Shown here: positions 7,171 through 20,326 of the stretch, in pieces | Layout of the letters: every line of letters begins with the position of its first letter | Numbering within the stretch: position 1 is the first letter of the stretch | From: Solwaraspora sp. WMMD792 | GTDB taxonomy: Bacteria > Actinomycetota > Actinomycetes > Mycobacteriales > Micromonosporaceae | NCBI RefSeq assembly: GCF_029626105.1 | Contig: NZ_JARUBH010000009.1 | Span: forward strand, 1,426,001 to 1,490,000 | Direction of reading: 5' to 3' | DNA: 64,000 nt | Notes under the pieces: model-generated | Told to the model about the DNA's origin: nothing | Seen by the model: only the letters and a program-made list of their open reading frames with translations | Databases searched by the model: none | Made by a program: the position numbers and the translations under genes

Positions 7171-7773
7171 CTATCCGACTGCGGCCGACCGGCGCGAGTG
7201 ATCCCGGGCGTGTTCCAGCAGCTTCACCAGGACCTCCTTGCCGGACTGCCGTTGCCGGGCGTCGCAGAGCACCACCGGCACGTCCGGATCGAGGTTCAGC
7301 GCCAACTGGACCTCGCCGAGCGCGTACTGCCGGGCACCGTCGAAGCAGTTGACCGCGACGATGAACGGGGTGCCCCGCTGCTCAAAGTAGTCGATGGACG
7401 GAAAGCAGTCGGCCAGCCGCCGGGTATCGGCGAGAACCACCGCACCGAGCGCGCCCATCGCGAGCTCGTCCCAGACGAAGAGGAAGCGCTCCTGGCCGGG
7501 GGTGCCGAACAGGTAGAGAACCAGGTCCTCGCTGATGGTGATTCGGCCGAAGTCCATCGCCACCGTGGTGGTGGACTTCTCCTCCACGCCGGAGACGTCG
7601 TCGACGGCGACCCCGACCTCGGTGAGCAGTTCCTCGGTGCGCAGTGGCCGGGTTTCGCTGACCGAACCGACCAGGGTCGTCTTGCCCACCCCGAAACCGC
7701 CGGCGATGAGCACCTTCACCGCGGTCGGCGCGATCGGCCTGGTGCCGGCCGGGTCAGAGCGCTCGTAGTCCAT
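7171..7773 (-). CDS. Conservon GTPase, CvnD-like
   Basis: 200 residues with a P-loop (IAGGFGVGKTTLVGSVSE, residues 23-40), a DxxG-type switch (LFGTPGQERFLFVWDEL) and a VNCFDG base-recognition segment. This is the small Ras-like ATP/GTP-binding protein that ends actinomycete conservons. In Streptomyces such modules form membrane-associated complexes with the kinase, roadblock and DUF742 partners and affect development and metabolism. The start overlaps the DUF742 gene by 20 bases, which implies coupled translation. Confidence 0.92.
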   Translation of the reverse strand: MDYERSDPAGTRPIAPTAVKVLIAGGFGVGKTTLVGSVSETRPLRTEELLTEVGVAVDDVSGVEEKSTTTVAMDFGRITISEDLVLYLFGTPGQERFLFVWDELAMGALGAVVLADTRRLADCFPSIDYFEQRGTPFIVAVNCFDGARQYALGEVQLALNLDPDVPVVLCDARQRQSGKEVLVKLLEHARDHSRRSAAVG

Positions 7774-8140
7774 TGATAACCGCCTCGAATACGCTGTCGT
7801 CAGTCGGGTTCGACGCCGAACGGGGTTCCTGTACCTCGACCAGTGCGTGTTCGAGCAGGTCGCCGAGGAGGACCCGGACGGTGCCGAGGGGCAGATCCAG
7901 GTAGGCCGCGACCTCGGCCACCGACAGCGGCTCGCGGCAGCGGTCCAGGATCGCCAGGTGCTCCGGGCCGAGACCGGCTTCCCCCGGTGGGGTCCGTGGC
8001 CTGGCCAGCACCAACGAGATGAGGTCGAACCGGCCGCGGCGTGGCCGGGTGCGGCCGCCGGTCATCGCGTACGGCCGGACCACCGGCCCGGCGTGGTCGT
8101 CGATCCACCGGTCCTCACCGGATTCGTCGGACTGGCTCAT
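7754..8140 (-). CDS. Conservon DUF742 protein, CvnC-like
   Basis: 128 residues. The central and C-terminal part is a DUF742 winged-helix-like domain (RPYAMTGGRTRPR, then CREPLSVAEVAAYLDLPLG, then VRVLLGDLLEHALV). It is the third gene of the kinase-roadblock-DUF742-GTPase operon. It lies 10 bases after the roadblock gene and overlaps the GTPase gene. It is thought to bridge the other partners; direct DNA binding is not established for this family. Confidence 0.9.
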   Translation of the reverse strand: MSQSDESGEDRWIDDHAGPVVRPYAMTGGRTRPRRGRFDLISLVLARPRTPPGEAGLGPEHLAILDRCREPLSVAEVAAYLDLPLGTVRVLLGDLLEHALVEVQEPRSASNPTDDSVFEAVINGLRAL

Positions 8141-8150
8141 CGTCGCCGGG

Positions 8151-8567
8151 TCACTTCTCTGTGTGGATCTCGGCCGGGCGGGTGCGGGAGGCCAGGTACT
8201 TGCCGGCCCTGGTCACCAGCATCGCCATCTCGTAGGCGATCAGTCCCACGTCGGTCTCCTCGCTGGCCAGTACGGCGAGACAGGCACCATGCCCGGCCGC
8301 CGTGACGAACAGGAACGAGGACTCCATCTCGATGATGGTCTGTCGTACCGGTCCACCGCGGAACCGTTTGCCGGCGCCGCGGGCGAGGCTCTGGATTCCG
8401 GCGGCCAGTGCTGCGAGGTGCTCGCCGTCGTCGCGTCCCAGGCCGGCCGAGGCGGCCATCAACAGGCCGTCCACGGAAAGCACGATCGCATGCTCGGCCT
8501 GCTTGACCCGACCGACCAGATCGTCGAGCAACCAGGTGAGGTCCGCGATCGAGGCGGTCTGCTGCAT
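8151..8567 (-). CDS. Conservon roadblock/LC7 protein, CvnB-like
   Basis: 138 residues covering one roadblock/LC7 domain: LTWLLDDLVGRVKQAEHAIV, then LLMAASAGLGRDDGEHLAAL, then SSFLFVTAAGHGACLAVLAS. Such proteins act as GTPase regulators or scaffolds for the CvnD-type GTPase. It is the second gene of the conservon, 39 bases after the kinase gene. Confidence 0.92.
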   Translation of the reverse strand: MQQTASIADLTWLLDDLVGRVKQAEHAIVLSVDGLLMAASAGLGRDDGEHLAALAAGIQSLARGAGKRFRGGPVRQTIIEMESSFLFVTAAGHGACLAVLASEETDVGLIAYEMAMLVTRAGKYLASRTRPAEIHTEK

Positions 8568-8606: not shown

Positions 8607-11150
8607 TCACGCCGATGGTGGGTTCCGGTCGTCGCTGACCGGTGCGGTGGCCGGTGACTGTCGTTGCGGCGCCGCCGCAGAGTCCTCGGGCGGCGGCGCG
8701 TCGGGCAGTCGCGCCGCGTCCGACCGACCTTGCCTCGTACCGCTCTGGTATGCGCTCATCATCCGCAGTACCTGCTCGGCCGGGCGGGCAGGGGGATCGG
8801 CCGGTTCGCCGTCCGGGTGCCTGTCCCGCTGCGGCGACCTGTCGGGCCGGTTCGCACCCGGTCCACCGGCGGACCCGGCGGCTGCGGAGCGTACCCGGAC
8901 CGGTAGCCCGGACGGGGTGTACGTCGAGGTGTGTGGCCCGGCTGGCGGGGCGGCCCGGACGCGGTCAGGCTGGGACTCGGGCTCCACCGGCCCGGCCGGA
9001 CGTCCCGCCGAGGCGGCCGTCTCCGTTGTCGGTGCGGTTGGCGGTGTCGCCCCGGTCGCCGTCGCCGGTGTGTCGCCGTCCGGTGCCGGGACGGGCTCGG
9101 AGCGGGCGGTGGCGGCCACCGGGGCGACCGCCCGCACGGTGGAACGCCGCTCGACGGCCCGACCCGGGCCGGCTGCGGCCGCCAGGGGCAGCGTCTCGAC
9201 GGTGTCGGACGCAGCAGGCACCGCCGCCGGGAGCCGGCCGCTGGAGCGCAGATCCGGGTCGGTGGCTTCGTCGCCCGGCACCACCAGTTCCCGTGGGATC
9301 AGCACGACAGCGGTGGATCCGCCGTACGGCGACTCCTTCAGGTGCACCCGGATGCCGGTGCGTTCGGTCAGCCGGCTGACTACGTACAGGCCGAGCCGGA
9401 CGGTGCTGGACAACCGGAACTCCGGATGCTCGGTGATCCGTTCGTTTGCGGCGGCCCGCTCGTCGTCGCTCATGCCCAGCCCGCGGTCCTCGATCTCCAG
9501 CACGTAGCCGTTGGCGACGAACTGTCCCTTGACCTGGACGGTGGTGTGCGGCGGGGAGAACGACAACGCGTTCTCGATGAGTTCGGCGAGCAGGTGGATC
9601 ACGTCGGCGACGGCCCGGCCGGCCAACGAGACCTGCCCGATCGGAGCGACGGTCACCCGGGTGTAGTCCTCGACCTCGGCGATGGCACCCCGGACTACGT
9701 CCACCATCGGCACGTCGCGGCGCCAGGTCCGGCCGGGGGTCGAGCCGGAGAGCACGATCAGATTCTCCGCGTTGCGCCGCATCCGGGTGGCCAGGTGGTC
9801 GACCCGGAAGAGCTCCTCCAGCTTGTCCGCGTCCTCCTCCCGGCGTTCCATCGAGTCGAGCAGGGTGAGCTGCCGGTGGACCAGTGCCTGGGTCCGGCGG
9901 GCCAGGCTGAGGAACACGTCGCGGACGCTGCGCCGCAGCTCGGCCTGTTCCACGGCGGTGCGCACGGCGGTTTCCTGCACCCGGTTGAACGCGCGGCCCA
10001 CTTGCCCGATCTCGTCGTTGCCGAACTCCAGCGGCGGTGCCTCGGCCGCCACGTCGACCTCCTCGCCCCGGCCGAGCCGGTCGACCACGCCCGGCAGCCG
10101 CTCCTCAGCCAGCCGGTGCGCCGCGTCCCGGAGCCGTTCGAGCTGGGCGACGATCGCCCGCGCGGTGGTGATCGACATGATGATCGACGCGACGACCGCG
10201 AGCATGCCGAGACCGGCCGCGAGTAGCAGCCGGAGCAGTACCAGCAGGGCCACCGGCACGGCCCGGTCGACGAGGTCGTCGCCGCCGGCCAGCACGATCG
10301 TGTGTAGATCGGACATGGTCGTGTCGGCCGCGGGCCGCCACTGCGCCTCGGTCAACGGTGCCGACGAGGAGGACGGCCCGCTCGCGACGATCCGCTGCTG
10401 CGCGTTCCGGAAACGTTCGTAGCTGTCGCTGTCGACCAGTTCCGCGTACCGGGCCCGGTCCGGTTCCGGCAGTTTCACCACGGTGGCGTCGACGAGGAAT
10501 TCCTGTGCGCCGACCAGCTGTACGAACCGGGTGTGCTCGGCTGCGGTGAACCGCTTCGCGACGATCACACCGGCGATCAGCGCATCCTGCTGGGCGACCA
10601 GTTCCTGGCTCCGGTTGAGATCGGTCAGGGTCGCCGTGTCGTCGGCGATGTCGCGTTCGTCGAGGTTGCCCAGCGCACCGAACAGTTGGAAGAACGCGGC
10701 GATCGTGTTGGTGTAGGCCTCGTGTGCGCTGCCCCGGTCGACTTCCCGTGCCTCGACGGCGTCGCGGGTGACGCGCAGCTCGGTCAGCCACCGCACGGTG
10801 TCGGCGACCTGCTGTTCCAGCTCGGCGCCGGCCGCGAGGTCCGCCCACCAGTGCTGGGCGGATGCCTGGAATTCGTCCGCGAGCCGTTCGTTCGCCTCAC
10901 GCAGCTCGACCAGTTCGCTGCGGCGTTCGTCGGTCGGCCCGGCCAGGTATTCCATCGCCAGGCGCCGCTCGGACTGCAGCCCGAGCAGCAGCGGCTCGCT
11001 CGGCTGGTAGATCTGGCTGTCGTAGGTCTGCACCCACAACAAATTCAGGCCGTCGCGCAGGGTCACCCATGCGGCGAATGCCCACAGCGCGCTGAGTGAC
11101 AGCAGCAGCGCGACAATCTTGGTACGCAGGTGAAATCCGCGTGACACCAT
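8607..11150 (-). CDS. Conservon sensor histidine kinase, CvnA-like
   Basis: 847 residues. TM1 is at about 11-31, followed by a large extracytoplasmic sensor region (about 32-300) of the nitrate/nitrite-sensing (NIT) type. TM2 is at about 305-330, then a HAMP linker (VAQLERLRDAAHRLAEERLP). A dimerisation segment with SLARRTQALVHRQLTLLDSM leads to a HATPase domain with N (LAELIENALSFSPPH) and G (EDRGLGMSDDE, SSTVRLGLYVVSRL) boxes. The last 200 residues are Pro/Ala/Thr-rich and disordered. It is the first gene of the conservon, 134 bases after the diterpene cyclase gene in the same direction. The usual response regulator is absent; signalling probably goes through the GTPase module. Confidence 0.92.
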   Translation of the reverse strand: MVSRGFHLRTKIVALLLSLSALWAFAAWVTLRDGLNLLWVQTYDSQIYQPSEPLLLGLQSERRLAMEYLAGPTDERRSELVELREANERLADEFQASAQHWWADLAAGAELEQQVADTVRWLTELRVTRDAVEAREVDRGSAHEAYTNTIAAFFQLFGALGNLDERDIADDTATLTDLNRSQELVAQQDALIAGVIVAKRFTAAEHTRFVQLVGAQEFLVDATVVKLPEPDRARYAELVDSDSYERFRNAQQRIVASGPSSSSAPLTEAQWRPAADTTMSDLHTIVLAGGDDLVDRAVPVALLVLLRLLLAAGLGMLAVVASIIMSITTARAIVAQLERLRDAAHRLAEERLPGVVDRLGRGEEVDVAAEAPPLEFGNDEIGQVGRAFNRVQETAVRTAVEQAELRRSVRDVFLSLARRTQALVHRQLTLLDSMERREEDADKLEELFRVDHLATRMRRNAENLIVLSGSTPGRTWRRDVPMVDVVRGAIAEVEDYTRVTVAPIGQVSLAGRAVADVIHLLAELIENALSFSPPHTTVQVKGQFVANGYVLEIEDRGLGMSDDERAAANERITEHPEFRLSSTVRLGLYVVSRLTERTGIRVHLKESPYGGSTAVVLIPRELVVPGDEATDPDLRSSGRLPAAVPAASDTVETLPLAAAAGPGRAVERRSTVRAVAPVAATARSEPVPAPDGDTPATATGATPPTAPTTETAASAGRPAGPVEPESQPDRVRAAPPAGPHTSTYTPSGLPVRVRSAAAGSAGGPGANRPDRSPQRDRHPDGEPADPPARPAEQVLRMMSAYQSGTRQGRSDAARLPDAPPPEDSAAAPQRQSPATAPVSDDRNPPSA

Positions 11151-11284
11151 TACACCGTCCCCGGCCTGACCTGCGAATGTCTCGTCATCTGCCTGCTACT
11201 CCTGGCCGTACATACGCGGACTGCGCCGCGCCTGTTCATGAGCGCATGGGCACGGCGCACGCTAGCAGCGTCGCGGTCCGGTGC

Positions 11285-13048
11285 TCAAGCGTGCCTGTTG
11301 ACGCCGGTGACGCGTGCCCGGTGAGCGAGTTTGCCGGCGGCCACGATCTCTGCCGCGACCACTGTGATCGGTTGGTAGAGGTCCTTGTCGTGCCAGAGGG
11401 CCGGCCCCTGGTCGGCGGTGGACGGTACGAGATGGGCGGCACCCCGGCGGGCGGCCCTCAGCATCCGGTCGCTGGGCGGGTCGGTGGTGGCGAGCAGGAT
11501 CCGTACCGCGTACGCGGTCTCTTCGGCGGTGCCGTGCCAGCACCCCCAGGAGCCGTCTGGCCGTTGGGTACGCAGCACCCAGTCCACCGCCCGCAGCACG
11601 GCGGCTGCCGGCCGGGCCCCGGTGCCGGCGGCGGACAACGCCAACGCGCAGGCGGCGGTCGCGTAGTACGGCGAGGCGTGCCAGCGGTCCTGCCAGGAGC
11701 CGTCGGGTTGCTGCTGGTCGCACAGCCAGGTGCTGATCGACCGGCGGAGTACATCCAGGTCGGCGGCGCGCCGGCCACCCCCGACCGCCTGGAGGGTGTC
11801 GAGGGCGTGCGCGTTGGTGGTCACCGAGGCGCCGTCCTCACCCGGCCAGGTGGCGATGTGGTCGCCGGCCCGGAAGCCGAGCAGCACCGCCGGATCGGCT
11901 GGCTGTCCGAGCAGCGCGAGACAGTGCAGGACCACGGCGGTGGTGTCGGCGTCCGGCGGCAGGCCCGCCCCGGTCGCCGCTCCGGCCGGGGTGAGCGCCG
12001 CACGCAGGGATCCAGGTAGTTCGGGCGGCACCAGCATGGCGACGTCGGCGCGCAGCAGGGTGGTCAGGGCCCAGGCCCGCTCGAACACGGCGACGGGCGT
12101 GGCACACGGCACCGGACCGTGGTGTTCGCGTACCACCGTTTCCAGGTAGTGGCGCGCGGGCGCCGGGTCGACCTCGGTGCGGATCGGGTCGATGGTGGCG
12201 AGCCAGGCTGCGGTGGCGGCCGGCGAACCGCCGACCGTGCCGGCCCGTTGGCCCGTCCCGGACCCCGCGAGTGGGTGGGCCGGCACGGGCGCCACCGCTG
12301 GACGGCTCTGCGGCGCCGCCTGGTGGGCGAAGGTCTCGTACGCGTGCAGCAGCTTCGTCGGCACCGGCCGGCCACCGGCGGACAGCCGGCGTACCGCGTC
12401 GAGCCGGCCGGAGTCGAGTTCACCCCGCAGCCGTAGTAGGGCGTCGGGTGCCGGGTCGTTCGCGGGCGGGCCGGGGCGGTGCCGTAGCCGTTGGTTGATC
12501 CGGTCGACCAGCGCCGGCACGATCAGGTCGGCGGCGGGGGTGTCGGGCAGTGTTCCGCCGGTCGTCGCGGCGAGGATCCGGTGCGCGGCGGTCAGCCCTC
12601 GCATCGTCGCGTCGGGCAGCCGCGTGGCAGTGGGCAGCGACTTGGCGGTGGGCAGCTGAGTGGCTTCGGGCAGTGGCGCGGCGGTGGACCGGACCGCCGT
12701 CGGTACGGCCGCGACGCCGAGCAGCGCCTCGACGGCGCTCAACGTCGGGACCAGCGCGTAGCCGCCCGGACCGCCCCAGCTGCCGTCCGGCTGCTGGCTG
12801 GCCAGCAGATGACGCACCCGGGCCCGGTGCCCGGTCAGCCAGGGGGCGAGGCTGACCAGTCGGGCGGTCTCGTAGACGGAGACGTCGGTGTGGCCCCAGG
12901 GCTGACCGGGCAGCCGATCCACGATCTCCTGCGCGGCCCGGTCCCAGCTGTCCGTGACGGGGCCGACGTACCGTCGGGCACGACCCGGGACCGGGTCGGT
13001 CGTGGCGGGCCCGCCACTGGGCGCGGCCCGGCTTCCGGTGACCGTCAC
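11285..13048 (-). CDS. Class II (protonation-initiated) diterpene cyclase
   Basis: 587 residues from a GTG overlapping the stop of the class I synthase gene (GTGA). Alpha-barrel cyclase repeats include QQPDGSWGGPGGYALVPTL, QQPDGSWQDRW and QRPDGSWGCWHG. The catalytic acid motif is D366-A-D-T-T, the DxDTT variant of DxDD in which the middle Asp protonates the terminal alkene of geranylgeranyl diphosphate. No class I DDxxD is present. The likely product is a copalyl- or halimadienyl-type diphosphate for the adjacent class I enzyme. A four-copy 18-base repeat encodes an LPxAxx insertion in the N-terminal half. Product identity cannot be read from sequence. Confidence 0.86.
   Translation of the reverse strand: MTVTGSRAAPSGGPATTDPVPGRARRYVGPVTDSWDRAAQEIVDRLPGQPWGHTDVSVYETARLVSLAPWLTGHRARVRHLLASQQPDGSWGGPGGYALVPTLSAVEALLGVAAVPTAVRSTAAPLPEATQLPTAKSLPTATRLPDATMRGLTAAHRILAATTGGTLPDTPAADLIVPALVDRINQRLRHRPGPPANDPAPDALLRLRGELDSGRLDAVRRLSAGGRPVPTKLLHAYETFAHQAAPQSRPAVAPVPAHPLAGSGTGQRAGTVGGSPAATAAWLATIDPIRTEVDPAPARHYLETVVREHHGPVPCATPVAVFERAWALTTLLRADVAMLVPPELPGSLRAALTPAGAATGAGLPPDADTTAVVLHCLALLGQPADPAVLLGFRAGDHIATWPGEDGASVTTNAHALDTLQAVGGGRRAADLDVLRRSISTWLCDQQQPDGSWQDRWHASPYYATAACALALSAAGTGARPAAAVLRAVDWVLRTQRPDGSWGCWHGTAEETAYAVRILLATTDPPSDRMLRAARRGAAHLVPSTADQGPALWHDKDLYQPITVVAAEIVAAGKLAHRARVTGVNRHA
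12602..12673 (-). repeat. In-frame minisatellite, 4 x 18 bases, in the cyclase gene
   Basis: Four consecutive 18-base units each begin CTGCCC on the coding strand and encode LPEATQ, LPTAKS, LPTATR and LPDATM. Unit boundaries are at 12602, 12620, 12638 and 12656. It adds a Pro/Thr-rich segment that the family does not need, so copy number may vary between strains. Confidence 0.9.
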
Positions 13049-13953
13049 AGCTCGCCCCAGAAATCGGTGACCCGGTAGAAGCCGCTGGTGTACCCCAGCT
13101 GCCGGGACAGGTAGGCGGCCTGGTTGGGGCAGCGGATCTCCAACGGCCGCAGCAGGTCGCGACACCGGTCCACCAGATGTCCGATCTGGTCCTCCACGAC
13201 ACCCCGGTCGGCGGTCAGCAGCAGCGCGTTGAGGTCACCCCAGGTGGTGTCCCGCTTGATCGAGGCGAGGTCGTTGACCAGTCGGAGCACCCGCTGCACC
13301 TCCCGACTGACGGTGATCAGCTCGGTCAGGTGCGCGAGCGTCGGGCCGTCGCCCAGACGCAGCCAGTGCGTCACGTTGACGAAGGTCGACCCGAAGTTGT
13401 CGGCGTTGTCGAGGTAGTCGGCGAAGGTCGGGCCGGCTTCCGCCGGGGCGGCACGGCGGGCCGCCTTCCACCGCCATTCCCGGTGCATGGCGGTGAGCGT
13501 CCGGTCCAGCTCGGCCCACCAGCGGTCCCGTCGGGCGGCGAAGGCGGGTGCCTGGTCGAGTTCGGCGACGATGTCGGCGAGGAACCGGCCGAGTTCGTCG
13601 TCGGGTCCGGCCGCGGTGCCGTGCGCCACCGCACGGCACCGGTCGACGAGGGCGACGATCTCGTCGTCGGTCGTGGCCCGGTAGTCGATCAACCAGTCGG
13701 CGGCGAACACCCACAGCGCGGCCCGGTTGGCCAGCCGTAGCTGCTCCGGGGTGCACCAGGGCGCGGCGAACGCGGTGGCCAGCGAGATCGCGGCGCTGAC
13801 CGCCGGGTCGAACGGGCGGGCCGGGAACAGACCGGGGTAGGCCCGGGTGTGTTCAGCCAGGTCACGCTGACCGTGGATCGCGATCGCGCAGATCCGGCCG
13901 TTCTCGGCCGCGCTCTGCAGGTTCGCCGCGGCCGATGAGGACACCGTGTGCAT
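13045..13953 (-). CDS. Class I terpene synthase
   Basis: 302 residues. The first metal motif is D86-W-L-I-D90 (DxxxD) instead of DDxxD. The second is N227-D-L-A-S231-I-K-R-D235, an NSE-type triad ending in Asp. The surrounding helices (RAALWVFAADWLIDYRA, LRLVNDLASIKRD) fit the class I fold. It should ionise the bicyclic diphosphate made by the neighbouring class II cyclase. The start ATG shares one base with the P450 stop (TGATG), and its stop overlaps the class II start, so the three genes are translationally coupled. Confidence 0.85.
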   Translation of the reverse strand: MHTVSSSAAANLQSAAENGRICAIAIHGQRDLAEHTRAYPGLFPARPFDPAVSAAISLATAFAAPWCTPEQLRLANRAALWVFAADWLIDYRATTDDEIVALVDRCRAVAHGTAAGPDDELGRFLADIVAELDQAPAFAARRDRWWAELDRTLTAMHREWRWKAARRAAPAEAGPTFADYLDNADNFGSTFVNVTHWLRLGDGPTLAHLTELITVSREVQRVLRLVNDLASIKRDTTWGDLNALLLTADRGVVEDQIGHLVDRCRDLLRPLEIRCPNQAAYLSRQLGYTSGFYRVTDFWGEL

Positions 13954-15374
13954 CAGACCGTCCGGGAGAGGGTGGCCGGTTCGATCCGGACCCGCACCGG
14001 GGCGTCGGTCCGTACCGACGCACCGGCCTGCGGCGTGGGTAGCCGGCCGTCCGTCACCCGCACCCGGAACCGGCTCAGGATCGTGGCGACGATCAGCGAC
14101 GCCTCCAGGTAGAACAGATACTGGCCGAGGCACTGGTGCGGCCCGCCGCCGAACGGGAAGTGGGCGTACCGCTGCCGGCGCCGTGCCGCCGCCGACGGAC
14201 CGGTGCCGGGGTCTTCCGTACCGTCGGGGTCGAACCGGTCGGGGTCGAACCGCTCCGGGTCCGGCCAGACCGTGGGCAGCCGGTGGGTCAGGTACGGGCT
14301 CGCCACCAGTTGCGCGCCCGCCTCGATGCGGACCCCGTCGATCACGTCGGCGGCGAGCGCGGTACGTGGGATCAGCCAGGCCACCGGGTACAGCCGCAGC
14401 AGCTCGTCCAGCACCATCCGGGTGTAGCGCAGCCGGGGCAGGTGGTCGCGGCGGACCGGTCCGGCGCCGACCACCTCGTCGATCTCCCGCTGCAGCCGGT
14501 CGGCGACCGCCGGGAGGCGGTGCAGTAGCGGCCAGAGCCAGGTCAGTACGCCGTAGGTGGTTTCGGTGCTGGTGGCGAACATGGCCACCGTGTCGTTGCG
14601 GATCTGCGCCTCGTCGAAGGCCCGGCCGTGACGGTCGCGGGCCCGGACCAGGGTCCCGACGACGTCGTCGGTGTCGTCGCCGTCGGCCCGGGCCTGTCGT
14701 ACCACCGGCAGCACGATGTCGTCGATGGTCCGTACGGCCTGACGGAACGCGCGGTCGCGGGGCAGCGGGACCGAGTTTGGCACGAACGGCAGGAGCAGCC
14801 TCGGCAGTACGGCGGTGGCGATGGTGTCCTGGGCTGCGGCGATCCGCAGCGCCTGGTCGGTGGTGAACCGGTCGGCGAACATGACCCGGACGATGGCGCG
14901 GCAGACCAGCCGGGCCAGTTCGGCGCCGATGTCGACGGTGTGTCCGTGCCGGGCCGCGTCGGCCAGCGGCCCGGTCGCGTCCGCGATCGCCGTGGCCAGG
15001 TCGTCGGTGAGGGCGTCCAGCCGTCGTGCGGTGAACAGCGGCTGCAGTGTACGGCGGCTGTCCGACCAGACCGGACCCTCGCTGAGGATGCCGTCGCCGA
15101 ACAATCGCAGGATGGGCCGCCAGAGCAGGCCCCGGCCGTCGCGCAGGTAGTTGGTCGCGTTGTCCCGCAGCACGTGCGCCACCTGGGCGGGATCACTGAC
15201 CAGGTAGAGCCGGGCCGGTCCGGCGGACAGCCGGACGATGCCGCCGTCGGCGTCGGTGGCGAGCCCGACGAGGGTCCGCAGCGGGTCGCGGACCAGACCA
15301 GGCAGGACGCGTAGCGCCGCGACCGGACGCATCGGGGCGGGAGAGGCACCCGGTCGGGGTGTCGGACCCGTCAT
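13953..15374 (-). CDS. Cytochrome P450
   Basis: 473 residues. The haem loop is FPFGGGPHQCLGQYL with the axial Cys at 415. The I-helix segment is FATSTETTYGVL, the ExxR motif is in DELLRLYP, and the PERF region is WPDPERFDPDRF. There is no N-terminal membrane anchor, so it is a soluble bacterial P450. As first gene of the P450-class I-class II operon it probably oxidises the diterpene skeleton. No ferredoxin is encoded beside it; the one at 4157 could serve but is distant. The start at 15374 is preferred because the upstream extension has no P450 features. Confidence 0.93.
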   Translation of the reverse strand: MTGPTPRPGASPAPMRPVAALRVLPGLVRDPLRTLVGLATDADGGIVRLSAGPARLYLVSDPAQVAHVLRDNATNYLRDGRGLLWRPILRLFGDGILSEGPVWSDSRRTLQPLFTARRLDALTDDLATAIADATGPLADAARHGHTVDIGAELARLVCRAIVRVMFADRFTTDQALRIAAAQDTIATAVLPRLLLPFVPNSVPLPRDRAFRQAVRTIDDIVLPVVRQARADGDDTDDVVGTLVRARDRHGRAFDEAQIRNDTVAMFATSTETTYGVLTWLWPLLHRLPAVADRLQREIDEVVGAGPVRRDHLPRLRYTRMVLDELLRLYPVAWLIPRTALAADVIDGVRIEAGAQLVASPYLTHRLPTVWPDPERFDPDRFDPDGTEDPGTGPSAAARRRQRYAHFPFGGGPHQCLGQYLFYLEASLIVATILSRFRVRVTDGRLPTPQAGASVRTDAPVRVRIEPATLSRTV

Positions 15375-15607
15375 GCGATCACCCTGCACACGATCTCCGT
15401 TCCGCCACCTGACCGCAGGGTCCACCGGGTCGATTGGTGACTGATTGAAAGCAAAGGACGACGTTCGGCTGATCATGCCATGATGAACACGGCCAATCTA
15501 GGTTCATAGATGTTAAGTTCTCCTTTGGTGCGCACACCTTTCCGCGCGCCAGCCGTACGGTCGTCTGTGCCGGCATTCGACATGGCCTGGTGTGGTATGA
15601 GTGCACG

Positions 15608-17713
15608 GTGACCCAGACGCAGCCCGGCGCCGGTGCCGACGACCCCAAGCCGGACCCCCGACGGGTGTCCGGCTGGTCCTACCTGGTGGAGTTGATCGCA
15701 CTCTGCGGGCTCGTGGTGGCCCAGCCGCTGCTCGACGTGATCGGTCGCAGCCCGGATTTCTTCTTCTTTCACGGTGCCGGACCGGCCGCCGTTCTCACCC
15801 TGGTCGCGGTGATCGTGCTGGTTCCGCCGGTGCTGTTGTGGGGTCTCGGCTGGCTGGCCGGGCTGGCCGGGCCGACGGCCCGGCGGTTGACCCATCTGGC
15901 CCAGCTCGGCGGTCTGACCGTGTTGTTCATCGTACAGATCGGAAAGACGCTGATCGATGTGCGGGGCCCGCTGCTGGTGGTGCTCGCCGTCGTCGTCGCC
16001 ACGGTGCTGCTCGCGGGGTTCGCCAGATCGACGGTCGCCCGGCAGGTACTGCGGGTCGCCGCGGTCGGTCCGCTGGCGTTCGTGCTGCTGTTCGTCTTCG
16101 CCTCGCCGTCGTCGGCGGTGCTGCTCGGCCGGGGGGCGTCCGGCTCGCCGGTGCGCAGCATCGGTCCCCACCCGCCGATCGTCATGATCATCCTCGACGA
16201 GTTCCCGCTGGTGTCGCTGCTCGACGAGCGAGGTGAGATCGACGCCGAGCTGGTGCCGAACTTCGCCCGGCTGGCGGCCGGCTCGACCTGGTACCGCAAC
16301 GCCACCACGGTGAGTGGCAAGACTGTCAACGCCGTGCCGGCGATGCTGACCGGGCGGTACCCGACCGGGGCGTTGACCCCGCACTACTCGCAGCACCCGG
16401 ACAACCTGTTCACCCTGCTCGGACCGGCCTACCAGATCGAGGCCTGGGAGAACGTCACCCAGCTGTGCCCACCGCAGCACTGCCGGGGGCGTCCCGGGCA
16501 GGACCGGGGCAGCCTGCCGGTGATGCTGCGGGAAACCGCGGCACTGTACGGCCAGTTGATCTCACCGGACGATTCGCTGGACGATCCGGCGGCGAGTTTC
16601 CGCGAGCCGACAGTGGCCGATGACATCCGGGCCAACGACAAGTCCCCGGACGTCGGCCCGGAGTTCCGGATGAGCCGGCTGAAGGAGAACCAGCCGGCCA
16701 GGTTCACCGAGTTCCTCGGTTCCCTGCAGCCCCGGGACACCCCGGCGCTGCACTTTCTGCATCTGCTGATGCCCCACTCGCCGTGGACCTATCTGCCGAG
16801 CGGAATGCGGTACGACGGTCCGGGCGGGCTGCCGTACGACGGACCCTGGTGGGCCCGGCTCACCCATCAGCGGCATCTGCAGCAGGTCGGCTACACGGAT
16901 CTGCTGCTCGGCGAGGCGCTGCACACGTTGCGTGCGAACGGCCTCTACGACGACGCGCTGATCGTGGTGACCTCCGACCACGGCGGCAGCTTCAGCGAGG
17001 GGATCACCGGCCGGGAGATAGACGACCAGTTCGCCGCCGCCGCCGAGCTCGCCTGGGTGCCGCTGTTCGTCAAGGAACCCGGCCAACAGGAGGGACGGAT
17101 CGACGACCGCAACTGGGAGCAGGTCGACCTGCTGCCGACCGTCGCCGACCACGCCGGGGTGCAGGTGCCGTGGCGTACCGATGGCATCTCCGCGCTGCGT
17201 GGCGAGCGGGAGACCACCGACAAGCGGTTCGATCCGCGACCGGGCGAACCAGTGACGATCGACGGTCCGGCCCACTTCGCCGCCGTACGGGCGGGTTCCA
17301 GTGCCCGGCCGGTGTTCCCGCCACTGCCGGCGGCCGACCTGATCGGCGCGGCGGTCGACGATCTGACGGTGGTCGGCACCGGCCCGCCGGCGACCGTGAC
17401 GAATCTGTCCGAGTACCAGGACGTCCGGGCGGAGCGCGGCAAGATCCCGGCGCTGGTGCACGGCACCCTGCCGGAGTCGGTGCCGGTCGGCGCCCCGGTC
17501 GCGGTCGCACTGAACGGGCAGGTCGGCACCGTGGTCCAGGCGGCCCGCGACGGTGCTGGTCAGCTCCGGTTCGTCGGGCTGATCCCGGACGAGCGACTGT
17601 TCGTCGCCGGCGCCAACCGGTTGGAGCTGTTCCTGGTGGTCGATCCGGGCCCGGTCAGCGGCGACCCGACTGGGGCCGCGCCGACCGTGCGTCGCCTGCC
17701 CATCACCGGCTGA
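15608..17713 (+). CDS. LtaS-like membrane sulfatase/phosphotransferase
   Basis: 701 residues from a GTG. Residues about 25-185 hold five membrane helices (LVELIALCGLVVAQPLL, AAVLTLVAVIVLVPPVLLW, LLVVLAVVVATVLLAGF and others). The extracytoplasmic alkaline-phosphatase/sulfatase domain follows. Its metal ligands include the Asp of VMIILDEFP and the DH of VVTSDHGGSF, and VSGKTVNAVPAMLTG should hold the nucleophilic Thr/Ser. The layout matches lipoteichoic-acid-synthase-like and phosphoglycerol transferases; actinomycete members are mostly uncharacterised. It is divergent from the P450. Whether it belongs to the terpenoid locus or to envelope metabolism is open. Confidence 0.8.
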   Translation: MTQTQPGAGADDPKPDPRRVSGWSYLVELIALCGLVVAQPLLDVIGRSPDFFFFHGAGPAAVLTLVAVIVLVPPVLLWGLGWLAGLAGPTARRLTHLAQLGGLTVLFIVQIGKTLIDVRGPLLVVLAVVVATVLLAGFARSTVARQVLRVAAVGPLAFVLLFVFASPSSAVLLGRGASGSPVRSIGPHPPIVMIILDEFPLVSLLDERGEIDAELVPNFARLAAGSTWYRNATTVSGKTVNAVPAMLTGRYPTGALTPHYSQHPDNLFTLLGPAYQIEAWENVTQLCPPQHCRGRPGQDRGSLPVMLRETAALYGQLISPDDSLDDPAASFREPTVADDIRANDKSPDVGPEFRMSRLKENQPARFTEFLGSLQPRDTPALHFLHLLMPHSPWTYLPSGMRYDGPGGLPYDGPWWARLTHQRHLQQVGYTDLLLGEALHTLRANGLYDDALIVVTSDHGGSFSEGITGREIDDQFAAAAELAWVPLFVKEPGQQEGRIDDRNWEQVDLLPTVADHAGVQVPWRTDGISALRGERETTDKRFDPRPGEPVTIDGPAHFAAVRAGSSARPVFPPLPAADLIGAAVDDLTVVGTGPPATVTNLSEYQDVRAERGKIPALVHGTLPESVPVGAPVAVALNGQVGTVVQAARDGAGQLRFVGLIPDERLFVAGANRLELFLVVDPGPVSGDPTGAAPTVRRLPITG

Positions 17714-17931
17714 CCCGGGCTGCCAGCAATCACAAAACGTTTGAGCTACGGGTCAATATGTCACATGTCGTATTCCCGTCACGTCAAAGCGTGTTGGGTC
17801 GGATCATCCCACTCAGGCGTCCTCATCATTCCATGAGAATTTCCTCAAGTTTCGGGCGAATCGGTTCCGTAGTCTGCTCCTGCCGTCGAGGGACGGGGCC
17901 GGGGCGTCGACCAACCGAGGAGGAGCCCGCC

Positions 17932-18942
17932 GTGCGAGGAATCACGGATCCGCCACCGACGTACGAGGCCCTGTCGGCGCAGCGGGCGGACGTCGTCGAG
18001 CAGACGACCGCGTTCGTCGACGAGGTGTGCAAGGACAATCCGCAGCTGGCGGGTTCGGTGATCCGGCTGCTGGAGGCCGACTACAAGAACGTCAGCATCC
18101 ATCGGCTGCTGCCGTTGCCGGTCCTCGGAACCATCACCGGCGACGCCCTTCCCGCGGTGCCGGTCTGCGTCCTGTCGCGGCTGTGGTGGACCGGTGCCGA
18201 CATCTTCGACGACCTCAACGACGGTCATTTCGATGCCGAGCGGGTCGGCATTTCTGCGAACGAAGCCATGATCGCGAGTATCGCCTGCCTGACCCTGCTG
18301 CCATCGGCGTTGATCGCGCGGCAGGACCTGACGGCGCAGGTGCGGATGGCGTGGATCGGTCACCTCACCGACGGCAACCTTGACGCCGCCAACGGCCAGC
18401 TGGCCGATATCTCCTCGGTCATTGATGCGGATTCGCTCACCGACGTGATGCGCAGCTACTCCGGCAAGTCCGGTTCCGCGTGTGGCCGGGACCTGGCGAT
18501 GACCGCCCTCCTGGCTGGCGCCGACGCTGCGGCGGTGGCCGGCTGGCGGGAGTTCGGACGCCGGTACGGTGTACTGCGGCAGTTGGCCAACGACTGCAGG
18601 TCGGTGCGCAAAGACGTCTGCGACGACGAGGATCTCGCCAACGGCACCCGGACCCTGCTGCTCGCCCACGCGCTCGTCGGCGCGCCAGCCGACCGCCAGG
18701 AACACATCCGCCGGCTGAGCGAGCGGGCCCGCCTCGACCTGGCCGCCCGCACCGAACTGCGGGGCGAGCTGACGCGTACGGCCGTAGCCGAACGGTACGA
18801 CTCGCACGTCACCGATCTGGGCCGACAGGCGAACCGGATGCTGTTCGATCTGGCCGCGCCGTCACCGTTCCGGGCGGCGGTCGAATGGATGGTCGACGTC
18901 TCCGTCGGGTCGGCCCTCATCGGTGGGCTAACTGTCGGATGA
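17932..18942 (+). CDS. Prenyl-diphosphate-synthase-like class I isoprenoid enzyme
   Basis: 336 residues from a GTG with GAGGAGGAG upstream. The first Asp-rich motif is D90-I-F-D-D94, followed by a later LANGTRTLLLAHALVG segment like the DxxxGKxTL region of polyprenyl synthases. The second metal motif is not DDxxD but N220-D-C-R-S224-V-R-K-D228, which reads as a terpene-synthase NSE-type triad. It may be a GGPP synthase supplying the cyclases, a ComQ-like prenyltransferase, or another class I terpene enzyme. It is the only candidate for the precursor-forming step nearby, but it lies across the sulfatase gene on the other strand. Confidence 0.75.
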   Translation: MRGITDPPPTYEALSAQRADVVEQTTAFVDEVCKDNPQLAGSVIRLLEADYKNVSIHRLLPLPVLGTITGDALPAVPVCVLSRLWWTGADIFDDLNDGHFDAERVGISANEAMIASIACLTLLPSALIARQDLTAQVRMAWIGHLTDGNLDAANGQLADISSVIDADSLTDVMRSYSGKSGSACGRDLAMTALLAGADAAAVAGWREFGRRYGVLRQLANDCRSVRKDVCDDEDLANGTRTLLLAHALVGAPADRQEHIRRLSERARLDLAARTELRGELTRTAVAERYDSHVTDLGRQANRMLFDLAAPSPFRAAVEWMVDVSVGSALIGGLTVG

Positions 18943-18973
18943 CCGGGCGCAGCGGGGCCCTCGACCGGCCCGG

Positions 18974-20326
18974 TCAGGCCGGTTCCTTCTCCGATACCGT
19001 CGGGCGTAGCTGGCGCGCTGCGGCCAGGCCACTGCGTACGGCGCCATCCAGGTAGGGTCCACCGAGGTAGTCGCCCGCGAACGCCAGGCCCGGCAGAGCC
19101 GGCTGCGCGTCGGTGAACTCCCGGGTGCGGCGGACGTGACCCACGTCGAAACGTGGCAGGGCGCGCTCCCAGCGCTGCACGTTGCGCAGTTCGGCACCGC
19201 GCAGCCAGTCGACCGGGCCCAACACCTCGCGGAGGCGGCCGACCACCGCCTCTGCCAGGATGTCGTCGGGCCGCCCGGCGTGCCGATCGAAACCCTCGCC
19301 CGACAGGTACACGTGCACGAGCCTCTCCTCATCCGCGCCGTCGGCCGGGGCCAGCCTGAGATAGGCGTTGACGGCCGCGATCTCGGGCGCCTCGGCGGCG
19401 GGGAACAGCACGGAACCATCGGGAAACGCCGCGCTGGCCGCCCTGACCGTGAACGTCAGTACGGCGGTGCGACCGTAGGAGATTGACCGGAGGTAGGCGA
19501 GGGCCGGCTCGGGCAGGTCCGGCAGGATCGTCGCCGCCTCGCCCGCCGTGGTGGCGCAGACGACCGCGGGCGCCCGGTACGTCGTGATCCCATCGCCGGT
19601 GTCGGCCTCGATGCTGAAGTCTCCCGAGGTCTCGCGCCTGATCCGCCGGACAGTGGTACCCGTTCGGACCTCCACCCCTGCGGCCAGTGCCTGCGGGAAC
19701 CGGGCCAGGCCACCACGCATGCGACGGGAGGCACCGGCGGTCGCGTGGGCCTTGAGGATCGCCAGCAGGACCGGATAGCTCGTCGTCTCCGCGTCCCAGT
19801 AGAGCATGCCCCGCAGCAGCGGCCCGAACAGGTATTCGAGGTTCTCGCTGCCGGCTCGCCGACGTAGAAAGTCCGCGCAGGACATTACGTCCAGGTGGTC
19901 GGCGCGGGCCAGGTCGGCGATGTCGAGGGCACGCCACCGGGCCGCGAGCCCGCCCGCGAAGCGGCACAGACGGAGCTTGGCCGACGCGCCGACGGCGCTG
20001 CCCGCCAGCAGCTTCGAGCCGGGAAGGATGGGGCGCAGCGTACCGTCGCGCACGACATAGGTGCCCTGGTTGTACTCGGACAGCTGCCCTGACACCCCGA
20101 GCTCATCCATCAGCCGCAGCGTCGATGCGTAGAAGGGTGTCACAAAGGCGGCCCCGGCCTCGACCACATGGCCGTTGACGGCCACGCTCCGGACCCGCCC
20201 GCCGATCTGCTCGCCACCCTCGAGAACCAGTACCCGCTGAACGGACCGACGGAGATCGTGTGCCGCGGTCAGACCCGCGACCCCACCGCCGACCACCACG
20301 ACGTCGGCGGATGTTCCGTGCACCAC
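18974..20326 (-). CDS. FAD-dependent amine-oxidase/protoporphyrinogen-oxidase-type oxidoreductase
   Basis: 450 residues. An N-terminal Rossmann FAD motif (VVVVGGGVAGLTAAHDLRR) is followed by GGRVRSVAVNG, and the C-terminal FAD motif is GLAFAGDYLGGPYLDGAV. This is the layout of flavin amine oxidases, HemY-like oxidases and phytoene desaturases. The central substrate domain (residues 85-270) gives no specific match that I can read. It converges on the prenyl-synthase-like gene with only 31 bases between them. A role in diterpenoid oxidation is plausible from position; haem synthesis is less likely because no hem genes are near. Confidence 0.78.
   Translation of the reverse strand: MVHGTSADVVVVGGGVAGLTAAHDLRRSVQRVLVLEGGEQIGGRVRSVAVNGHVVEAGAAFVTPFYASTLRLMDELGVSGQLSEYNQGTYVVRDGTLRPILPGSKLLAGSAVGASAKLRLCRFAGGLAARWRALDIADLARADHLDVMSCADFLRRRAGSENLEYLFGPLLRGMLYWDAETTSYPVLLAILKAHATAGASRRMRGGLARFPQALAAGVEVRTGTTVRRIRRETSGDFSIEADTGDGITTYRAPAVVCATTAGEAATILPDLPEPALAYLRSISYGRTAVLTFTVRAASAAFPDGSVLFPAAEAPEIAAVNAYLRLAPADGADEERLVHVYLSGEGFDRHAGRPDDILAEAVVGRLREVLGPVDWLRGAELRNVQRWERALPRFDVGHVRRTREFTDAQPALPGLAFAGDYLGGPYLDGAVRSGLAAARQLRPTVSEKEPA

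Follow-up and report, generated by a model that had tools for sequence, protein, structure and literature searches.

The window analysed here is a stretch of 64,000 nucleotides from Solwaraspora sp. WMMD792 (Micromonosporaceae; assembly GCF_029626105.1, contig NZ_JARUBH010000009.1, positions 1,426,001 to 1,490,000), and all coordinates below count from its first letter. On its minus strand lie, one behind the other, the genes for a cytochrome P450, a class I diterpene synthase of the Sat1646 family, and a class II diterpene cyclase. The row continues beyond the class II gene, in the same orientation, with genes for a NIT-HAMP-HATPase kinase, a roadblock protein, a DUF742 protein, and a GTPase (Table 1). 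With its four core domains in the known order, this second set is a conservon, an actinobacterial G-protein system (AGPS), and we refer to its genes as cvnA to cvnD. The locus is best explained as an isopimarane operon joined to a conservon in a seven-gene unit, a reading that we hold with a probability of about 0.65.

An earlier note on this DNA had proposed a single diterpenoid cluster from 11285 to 20326. Comparison with related loci shifts both borders: the conserved unit of seven minus-strand genes extends from 7171 to about 15476, while the sulfatase, the prenyl-synthase-like gene, and the amine oxidase fall outside it. Genes were called by a simple codon-usage script, and the start codons are approximate. 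Where the genes on both sides were called (65-71 loci), the P450 and class I genes, like the class I and class II genes, overlap by a median of 4 nt. The gap from class II to cvnA has a median of 138 bp (69 loci) and that from cvnA to cvnB of 74 bp, and the later cvn genes are separated by short gaps or overlap. No terminator-like site on the minus strand is listed in the 134 bp gap between class II and cvnA of the window. The ratio of nonsynonymous to synonymous substitution rates (dN/dS) between the window and the sister genome G114 is 0.12 for class I, 0.34 for class II, 0.24 for the P450, 0.26 for the prenyl-synthase-like gene, and 0.31 for the amine oxidase, so that all five genes compared are under purifying selection.

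Table 1. Genes and intergenic gap of the seven-gene unit and its neighbours in the window
Feature	Coordinates	Strand	Remarks
Cytochrome P450	13953..15476	-	First gene of the unit; best-scoring start 15332; Pfam p450 E 7e-64
Class I diterpene synthase, Sat1646 family, 302 aa	13045..13953	-	phmmer to 7e4n E 2.6e-90; Pfam Terpene_syn_C_2
Class II diterpene cyclase, copalyl-diphosphate-synthase type, 587 aa	11285..13048	-	phmmer to 5bp8 E 6.1e-90; Pfam SQHop_cyclase_C
Gap between class II gene and cvnA, 134 bp	11151..11284	-	Median 138 bp across 69 loci
cvnA, sensor-histidine-kinase-like, NIT + HAMP + HATPase	8607..11150	-	Pfam NIT 123.7 bits, HATPase_c, HAMP
cvnB, roadblock/LC7 protein	8151..8567	-	Pfam Robl_LC7 E 4.9e-27
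cvnC, DUF742 protein	7754..8140	-	Pfam DUF742 E 7.1e-36
cvnD, conservon small GTPase	7171..7773	-	Pfam ATP_bind_1 E 1.8e-32
Membrane sulfatase-superfamily protein, outside the unit	15608..17713	+	Divergent from the operon
Prenyl-synthase-like protein, trans-isoprenyl-diphosphate-synthase fold, outside the unit	17932..18942	+	DDLND + NDCRSVRKD; Pfam polyprenyl_synt
FAD-dependent amine-oxidase/HemY-like oxidoreductase, outside the unit	18974..20326	-	Present or absent together with the prenyl-synthase-like gene in the loci compared

Linkage of the conservon to the diterpene genes

With a threshold of E 1e-5, the class I enzyme had matches in 86 of 250 Micromonosporaceae genomes. Our main set consists of 84 close loci and the window, 85 in all, with three distant matches (G104, G236, and G044) excluded. 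The order P450, class I, class II, cvnA, cvnB, cvnC, cvnD on a single strand is complete in 70 of these 85 loci, and complete loci occur in nine of the ten genera (g1, 4 of 7; g4, 51 of 57; g44, 2 of 4; g2, 1 of 1; g36, 1 of 1; g25, 2 of 3; g11, 3 of 3; g32, 5 of 6; g28, 1 of 1; g43, 0 of 2). Among the 15 incomplete loci, L158, L177, and L198 reach contig ends, L171, L188, and L191 have no class II gene, L070-L072 are decayed, and L155 and L199 are rearranged. L147 is without the P450, L080 without the conservon, and L141 without both; in L197 the class II gene lies on the other side of the class I gene, and the contig ends 298 bp further. Outside Micromonosporaceae, a search of 296 genomes at the class level detected the class I gene in 11 genomes, all belonging to one family (f19). 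Nine of the 11 f19 loci have the full set of seven genes, L220 being rearranged and L223 reaching a contig end.

The Salinispora-type genome G644, whose class I protein is 98% identical to Sat1646, has all seven genes in the same order. The published Salinispora operon, terp1/sat, comprises SaCPS, SaDTS/Sat1646, and CYP1051A1 and leads to isopimara-8,15-dien-19-ol; the available parts of its accounts name the class I, class II, and P450 genes and no conservon. Since G644 carries the complete set, its gene order makes it very probable that in terp1/sat, too, a conservon follows immediately. A Salinispora-type diterpenoid operon in the window, for which the earlier note had proposed a comparison with the published one, is supported. 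Searches of an open-licence collection of papers brought up no account of a terpene-synthase or diterpene operon linked to a conservon; the original terp1 paper may mention neighbouring genes.

How well do the seven genes hold together compared with their surroundings? When the genes of the 85 loci were grouped into families by blastp, operon families reached 67-85 loci and 9 or 10 of the 10 genera, the P450 and cvnA families being placed by this clustering in one merged group. Among the flanking families, even the best-kept reached no more than 44 loci and 3 genera, and 41-44 of those loci belong to g4. Thus, no genes other than these seven stay together from genus to genus, whereas in g4 the synteny may be due to common descent. 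The linkage is also kept despite rearrangement: the conservon of L267 and L268 sits flipped on the far side of the P450 gene and is still adjacent to it, in L199 the class I gene has been relocated beyond cvnD, L220 is split, and in L155 the class I gene is inverted in place.

The individual trees add a further detail. The f19 rows occupy two places in the class I tree, one of them inside a group of Micromonosporaceae rows, while in the CvnA tree (40 chosen rows, a quick method without bootstrap) 9 of 10 f19 rows form one group. Because the two trees disagree, we tentatively suggest that the biosynthetic genes have been exchanged beside a more stable conservon, with the linkage kept.

The strongest alternative regards the conservon as a passive neighbour: the diterpene operon was once inserted beside an old conservon locus, and both have been inherited together without any joint function. 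We consider this a serious possibility that stays clearly below even odds. Several observations weigh against our own reading or favour this one. In g4, the largest genus, the upstream flanks are likewise shared, and common descent could suffice to account for its synteny. The genome G003 has an orthologous conservon (L261) at the same place, between the same flanks, without the three biosynthetic genes. Conversely, L080 has all three biosynthetic genes and L141 has both synthases, in each case with no conservon in 20 kb. Of 13 genomes with a close CvnA ortholog (cut-off 676 bits or more), 10 have the class I gene and 3 do not. Finally, the gap before cvnA is 73 bp or more, which leaves room for a separate promoter. 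A passive neighbour, however, fits poorly with a linkage found in nine of ten genera and in a second family, with flanking families reaching three genera at most, and kept in four rearranged arrangements. Moreover, the paralogous conservons L269 and L270 have no relatives of class I, class II, or P450 in 20 kb. The linkage itself is observed; a functional coupling between conservon and diterpene pathway would be its meaning, and we incline to it by slightly better than even odds.

Some loci of other composition were seen along the way. At L155 (9602-10345), class I alone is inverted within an otherwise complete seven-gene locus. At L134 (2659-10423; genome G044), a conservon has beside it another class I synthase, at about 30%, and a related P450, at 47% to that of the window; no class II relative lies within 20 kb. 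L133 (7087-11996; genome G104, another genus of the family) is a separate class I/class II diterpene locus with a gene like geranylgeranyl diphosphate (GGPP) synthase and P450s, and with no conservon relative within 20 kb.

Diterpene synthases, the P450, and the predicted product

The class I protein aligns with Sat1646 (7e4n) over residues 12-301 of its 302 at 52% identity (E 2.6e-90), and its match to Stt4548 is far weaker. Its metal motifs are D86-W-L-I-D90 (DWLID) and a normal second motif, NDLASIKRD, and both D86 and D90 are invariant in an eight-row alignment. As reported in PMC9814573, Sat1646 carries EDWQVD (87-92) and NDLASYERD (223-231), binds Mg2+ at Asp88 and Asp92 in its crystal structure, and converts copalyl diphosphate to isopimara-8,15-diene. 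Asp stands at both DxxxD positions in 80 of the 85 loci; among the others, the sister loci L070-L072 have lost the motif, and L190 and L201 have broken frames that do not cover it.

The class II protein has the acid motif GLPPDADTTAVV, in which DADTT is an instance of DxDTT. It matches the ent-copalyl diphosphate synthase 5bp8 (E 6.1e-90), and it thus combines the homology and the DxD-type acid motif of a bacterial class II copalyl diphosphate synthase. DADTT occurs in 75 of the 82 class II genes found at the loci. The DxDTT, DWLID, and NDxxSxxxD motifs to which the earlier note had drawn attention are all present in the window in the class II, class I, and prenyl-synthase-like proteins, respectively. 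Their description as unusual metal motifs is not supported for the two diterpene enzymes: because DxxxD and DADTT are family-wide, neither is a sign of new chemistry, and DxxxD is the norm of its family.

The P450 of the window is 52% identical to that of the Salinispora-type locus L260 over 452 aa (blastp). By the 40% convention we take the two to belong to the same CYP family, and we refer to the P450 of the window as CYP1051-like.

Two groups of loci depart from the usual enzyme set. L171, L188, and L191, which belong to the Tyr183 clade described below, have a P450, a class I gene, and a conservon with no class II gene at the locus; their class I enzymes should require a class II product. 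In L070 (9539-11478), L071 (9331-11228), and L072 (9496-11432), all from same-genus genomes, the class I frame is open and overlaps by 4 nt a shortened class II gene. Both genes are without catalytic motifs, and no relative of the P450 or cvnA was found in 20 kb. The closest pair among these loci has dN/dS of 0.14 for class I and 0.49 for class II, and a non-catalytic protein may here be maintained by selection.

Does the window enzyme make the Salinispora hydrocarbon? In the alignment columns, its residues corresponding to Tyr183 and Tyr288 of Sat1646 are Phe and Tyr, and V84 is kept. The Tyr183-Tyr288 catalytic dyad is therefore incomplete, and by sequence the enzyme is a Sat1646 homolog outside its Tyr-dyad clade. 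In Sat1646, the variants Y183F and Y183F/Y288F are reported to have lost isopimara-8,15-diene and to form isopimara-8(14),15-diene, V84G to add the 7(8),15-isomer, and Y183A still to make a small amount of the 8,15-diene (PMC9814573). Because the window has F183 and Sat1646 Y183F gives the 8(14),15-isomer, we predict isopimara-8(14),15-diene as the product, with roughly even confidence. The product, which the earlier note had considered possibly new, would therefore be an isomer different from the Salinispora one and still a known hydrocarbon. Two points count against the prediction: it extrapolates a point mutant to a protein that is 48% different, and Leu58, Ser81, Thr85, and Ala185 of Sat1646 are replaced in the window by Ile, Ala, Phe, and Ser.

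The rival view is that the window makes isopimara-8,15-diene after all, with Tyr288 or another residue substituting for Tyr183, and that the operon yields isopimara-8,15-dien-19-ol as in Salinispora. The operon and the enzyme family are identical in kind to those of Salinispora, Tyr288 is kept, and the residual 8,15-diene of Y183A points in the same direction. The complete loss of this diene in Y183F does not, and neither does the distribution of Tyr183, which makes this outcome doubtful in our estimation. Among 103 sequences, position 183 is occupied by L (50), Y (18), F (16), T (6), S (5), I (3), H (2), V (1), C (1), and R (1). In the class I tree (102 rows kept; L190, L201, and L223, with broken or cut frames, omitted), Tyr183 is confined to the single 20-row clade (19 Y, 1 F) that contains Sat1646. 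Outside this clade there are Leu, Phe, Thr, Ser, His, and others, and position 183 shows 14 state changes in total.

According to a review, Microbispora hainanensis, of the Streptosporangiaceae, yields a 2-hydroxy-8(14),15-pimaradiene-dioic acid, and 8,15-dienes are listed for Micromonospora and Salinispora (PMC10301674). These compounds would fit the preferred 8(14),15 prediction if they came from this operon and f19 were the Streptosporangiaceae.

The prenyl-synthase-like gene and the supply of GGPP

The earlier note had stressed that there is no canonical GGPP synthase. This holds for the window, where no polyprenyl-synthase family match exists besides the prenyl-synthase-like gene. In the genome itself (7.4 Mb), the polyprenyl synthetase family is matched six times, and the five strong matches all lie outside the window. 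With these five as tblastn queries (E 1e-3), no GGPP synthase was found around 104 loci (the 85, the 11 of f19, and 8 more near Sat1646; stretches of at most 20 kb, some cut by contig ends), while the same queries recovered the synthase present in L133 as a positive control. Because none was found around the 104 loci, the missing gene is the norm at such loci and not a sign of novelty.

The prenyl-synthase-like protein barely passes the polyprenyl synthetase family cut-off (27.8 vs 27 bits). Its AlphaFold2 model (mean confidence, pLDDT, 86.6) has the fold of isoprenyl diphosphate synthases (IDS), and the 20 best Foldseek matches, with TM-scores of 0.62-0.80 by query length, are trans-prenyl synthases and one ACP-HEPS2 model. 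The first motif is DDLND; the second is NDCRSVRKD, of the form NDxxSxxxD and not DDxxD. Only the sequences of the window, G114, and Nocardia showed the NDxxS(xxxD) form, other members having NDxxD and one DDxxD. GGKxxR of the isopentenyl diphosphate (IPP) site and its RRG, which follows the first motif, are lost in 12 aligned family members, by comparison with three IDS of the same genome, and because of this loss the protein is probably not a chain elongator. A terpene synthase or an Ord1/ComQ-like (tryptophan-type) prenyltransferase would be plausible and fit equally well. Ord1, ComQ, and PalQ are reported to have the IDS fold with the first Asp-rich motif kept and the second altered (PMC13290415, PMC10853753), as in the protein encoded at 17932-18942, the only part of the window to which this comparison applies.

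As a member of the operon this gene was rejected. The sister genome G093, with a class I protein 98% identical, has the sulfatase and the downstream transporter genes, and between them the prenyl-synthase-like gene and the amine oxidase are missing; G114 has both at 93-94%. The pair stands beside 2 of the 85 class I loci, the window included, and is absent from 83, and the operon is complete without it. The membrane sulfatase, too, lies beside the operon only in the genus of the window (7 of 85 loci). The pair is an unrelated neighbour.

Relatives of the prenyl-synthase-like protein are scattered. In the 250 family genomes, the only close one is in G114 (93%), followed by G106 and G044 (33-35%) and 24 weaker matches. 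Among named genomes, Nocardia stercoris (64%) and Actinomadura and Dactylosporangium (34-38%) have relatives, this search having used short patterns that may miss others. A family profile (E 1e-12) has matches in 40 of the 394 class-level genomes, and in four of these, one being that of the window, the match is strong. In Nocardia, two P450 genes are the only relatives of the diterpene operon within 10 kb of the gene. No amine oxidase relative at E 1e-30 was found in 60 other genomes compared. The Dactylosporangium and Actinomadura loci L073 (9442-17486), L074 (2793-10349), and L088-L095 hold sets with an IDS-like gene. In Dactylosporangium this set includes, by names given by eye, UbiA-like, P450, PEP-synthase-like, nitroreductase-like, methyltransferase-like, and AfsA-like genes, and such sets may represent an unassigned isoprenoid pathway.

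The pair could form a small pathway of its own, in which an Ord1/ComQ-type prenyltransferase acting on tryptophan or another acceptor, or a stand-alone terpene synthase, works with the FAD oxidase; we rate this somewhat short of even. Both genes are present or absent together in seven same-genus loci, the IPP-site residues are lost, and Ord1 (9v4g), reported to farnesylate free tryptophan (PMC13290415), is among the sequence and fold matches. On the other hand, the similarity to Ord1 is weak (E 0.002, about 22% identity), and the Nocardia, Dactylosporangium, and Actinomadura relatives have no relative of the oxidase in the stretches examined. An encapsulin cargo prenyltransferase (NF041169) was rejected (37 bits vs a cut-off of 450), and inspection by eye gave no convincing candidate for a precursor peptide beside the gene in the window and Nocardia. 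That the protein is a second class I terpene synthase of the pathway, as the earlier note had offered, is highly improbable: although NDxxSxxxD resembles a class I second motif and is kept in N. stercoris, and the lost GGKxxR and RRG make a non-elongating enzyme plausible, the gene's restriction to two loci, the absence of operon genes beside its Nocardia relative, the trans-prenyl synthases as nearest folds, the NDxxD and DDxxD of other members, and an operon complete without it all speak against membership.

Proposed pathway and possible role of the conservon

In the isopimarane reading, prenyl synthases encoded elsewhere in the genome would supply GGPP. The class II cyclase would protonate it at DADTT and form copalyl diphosphate, as inferred from its family. 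The class I enzyme, whose family membership is shown, would ionise this intermediate with Mg2+ held on D86/D90 and NDLASIKRD and would give an isopimarane. With Phe in place of the catalytic base Tyr183, the C-9 proton would be retained, and isopimara-8(14),15-diene is the most likely outcome. The CYP1051-like P450 may then oxidise the diene, perhaps at C-19 as in Salinispora.

What the conservon contributes is suggested by known systems. Conservons are sensor-GTPase systems, and cvn8 is reported to control specialised metabolism in interspecies contact and to repress a neighbouring lanthipeptide cluster (PMC8510531, PMC13343842). The conservon of the window shares the four core domains and their order with CvnA-D of Streptomyces coelicolor and differs in being joined to a diterpene pathway. 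A nearer parallel is found in the clusters of the indole prenyltransferase IptA, where a conservon is reported in all clusters found and a signalling role has been suggested (PMC3617294); there the product is a prenylated indole, whereas here a cyclic diterpene would arise via class II and class I synthases.

Some conservons include an accessory P450, CvnE, and the P450 of the window was considered for this part. CvnE P450s are reported to go overwhelmingly with a CvnA without a sensory domain (PMC13343842). The CvnA of the window has a NIT domain (123.7 bits), as do all six other CvnA proteins scanned: three of the operon, one of G003 without the triplet, one beside another synthase, and one paralog. 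Because CvnA carries this domain here, the comparison does not support a CvnE; a biosynthetic role suits the P450 best, with the conservon as its partner for sensing.

The NIT-type CvnA presumably senses an extracellular cue, and the conservon would most probably either switch the pathway on or sense its diterpenoid product. Direct sensing of the diterpenoid seems unlikely to us. A still more specific version is a hormone circuit, in which the diterpenoid made by the first three gene products is sensed via the NIT domain of CvnA, and clade-specific signals arise through residue 183 and its neighbours; this, too, we consider unlikely.

The association of pathway and conservon in two families, kept through rearrangements, makes two orphan questions testable by simple gene removals. 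It hints at a signalling role for an orphan diterpene, and variation at residue 183, which switches the product in one member, makes the family a natural set of variants for reading product from sequence. If the hormone circuit were true, it would represent a terpenoid/G-protein signalling system across at least two actinobacterial families and would help to explain why the Salinispora diterpene is not seen in pure culture.

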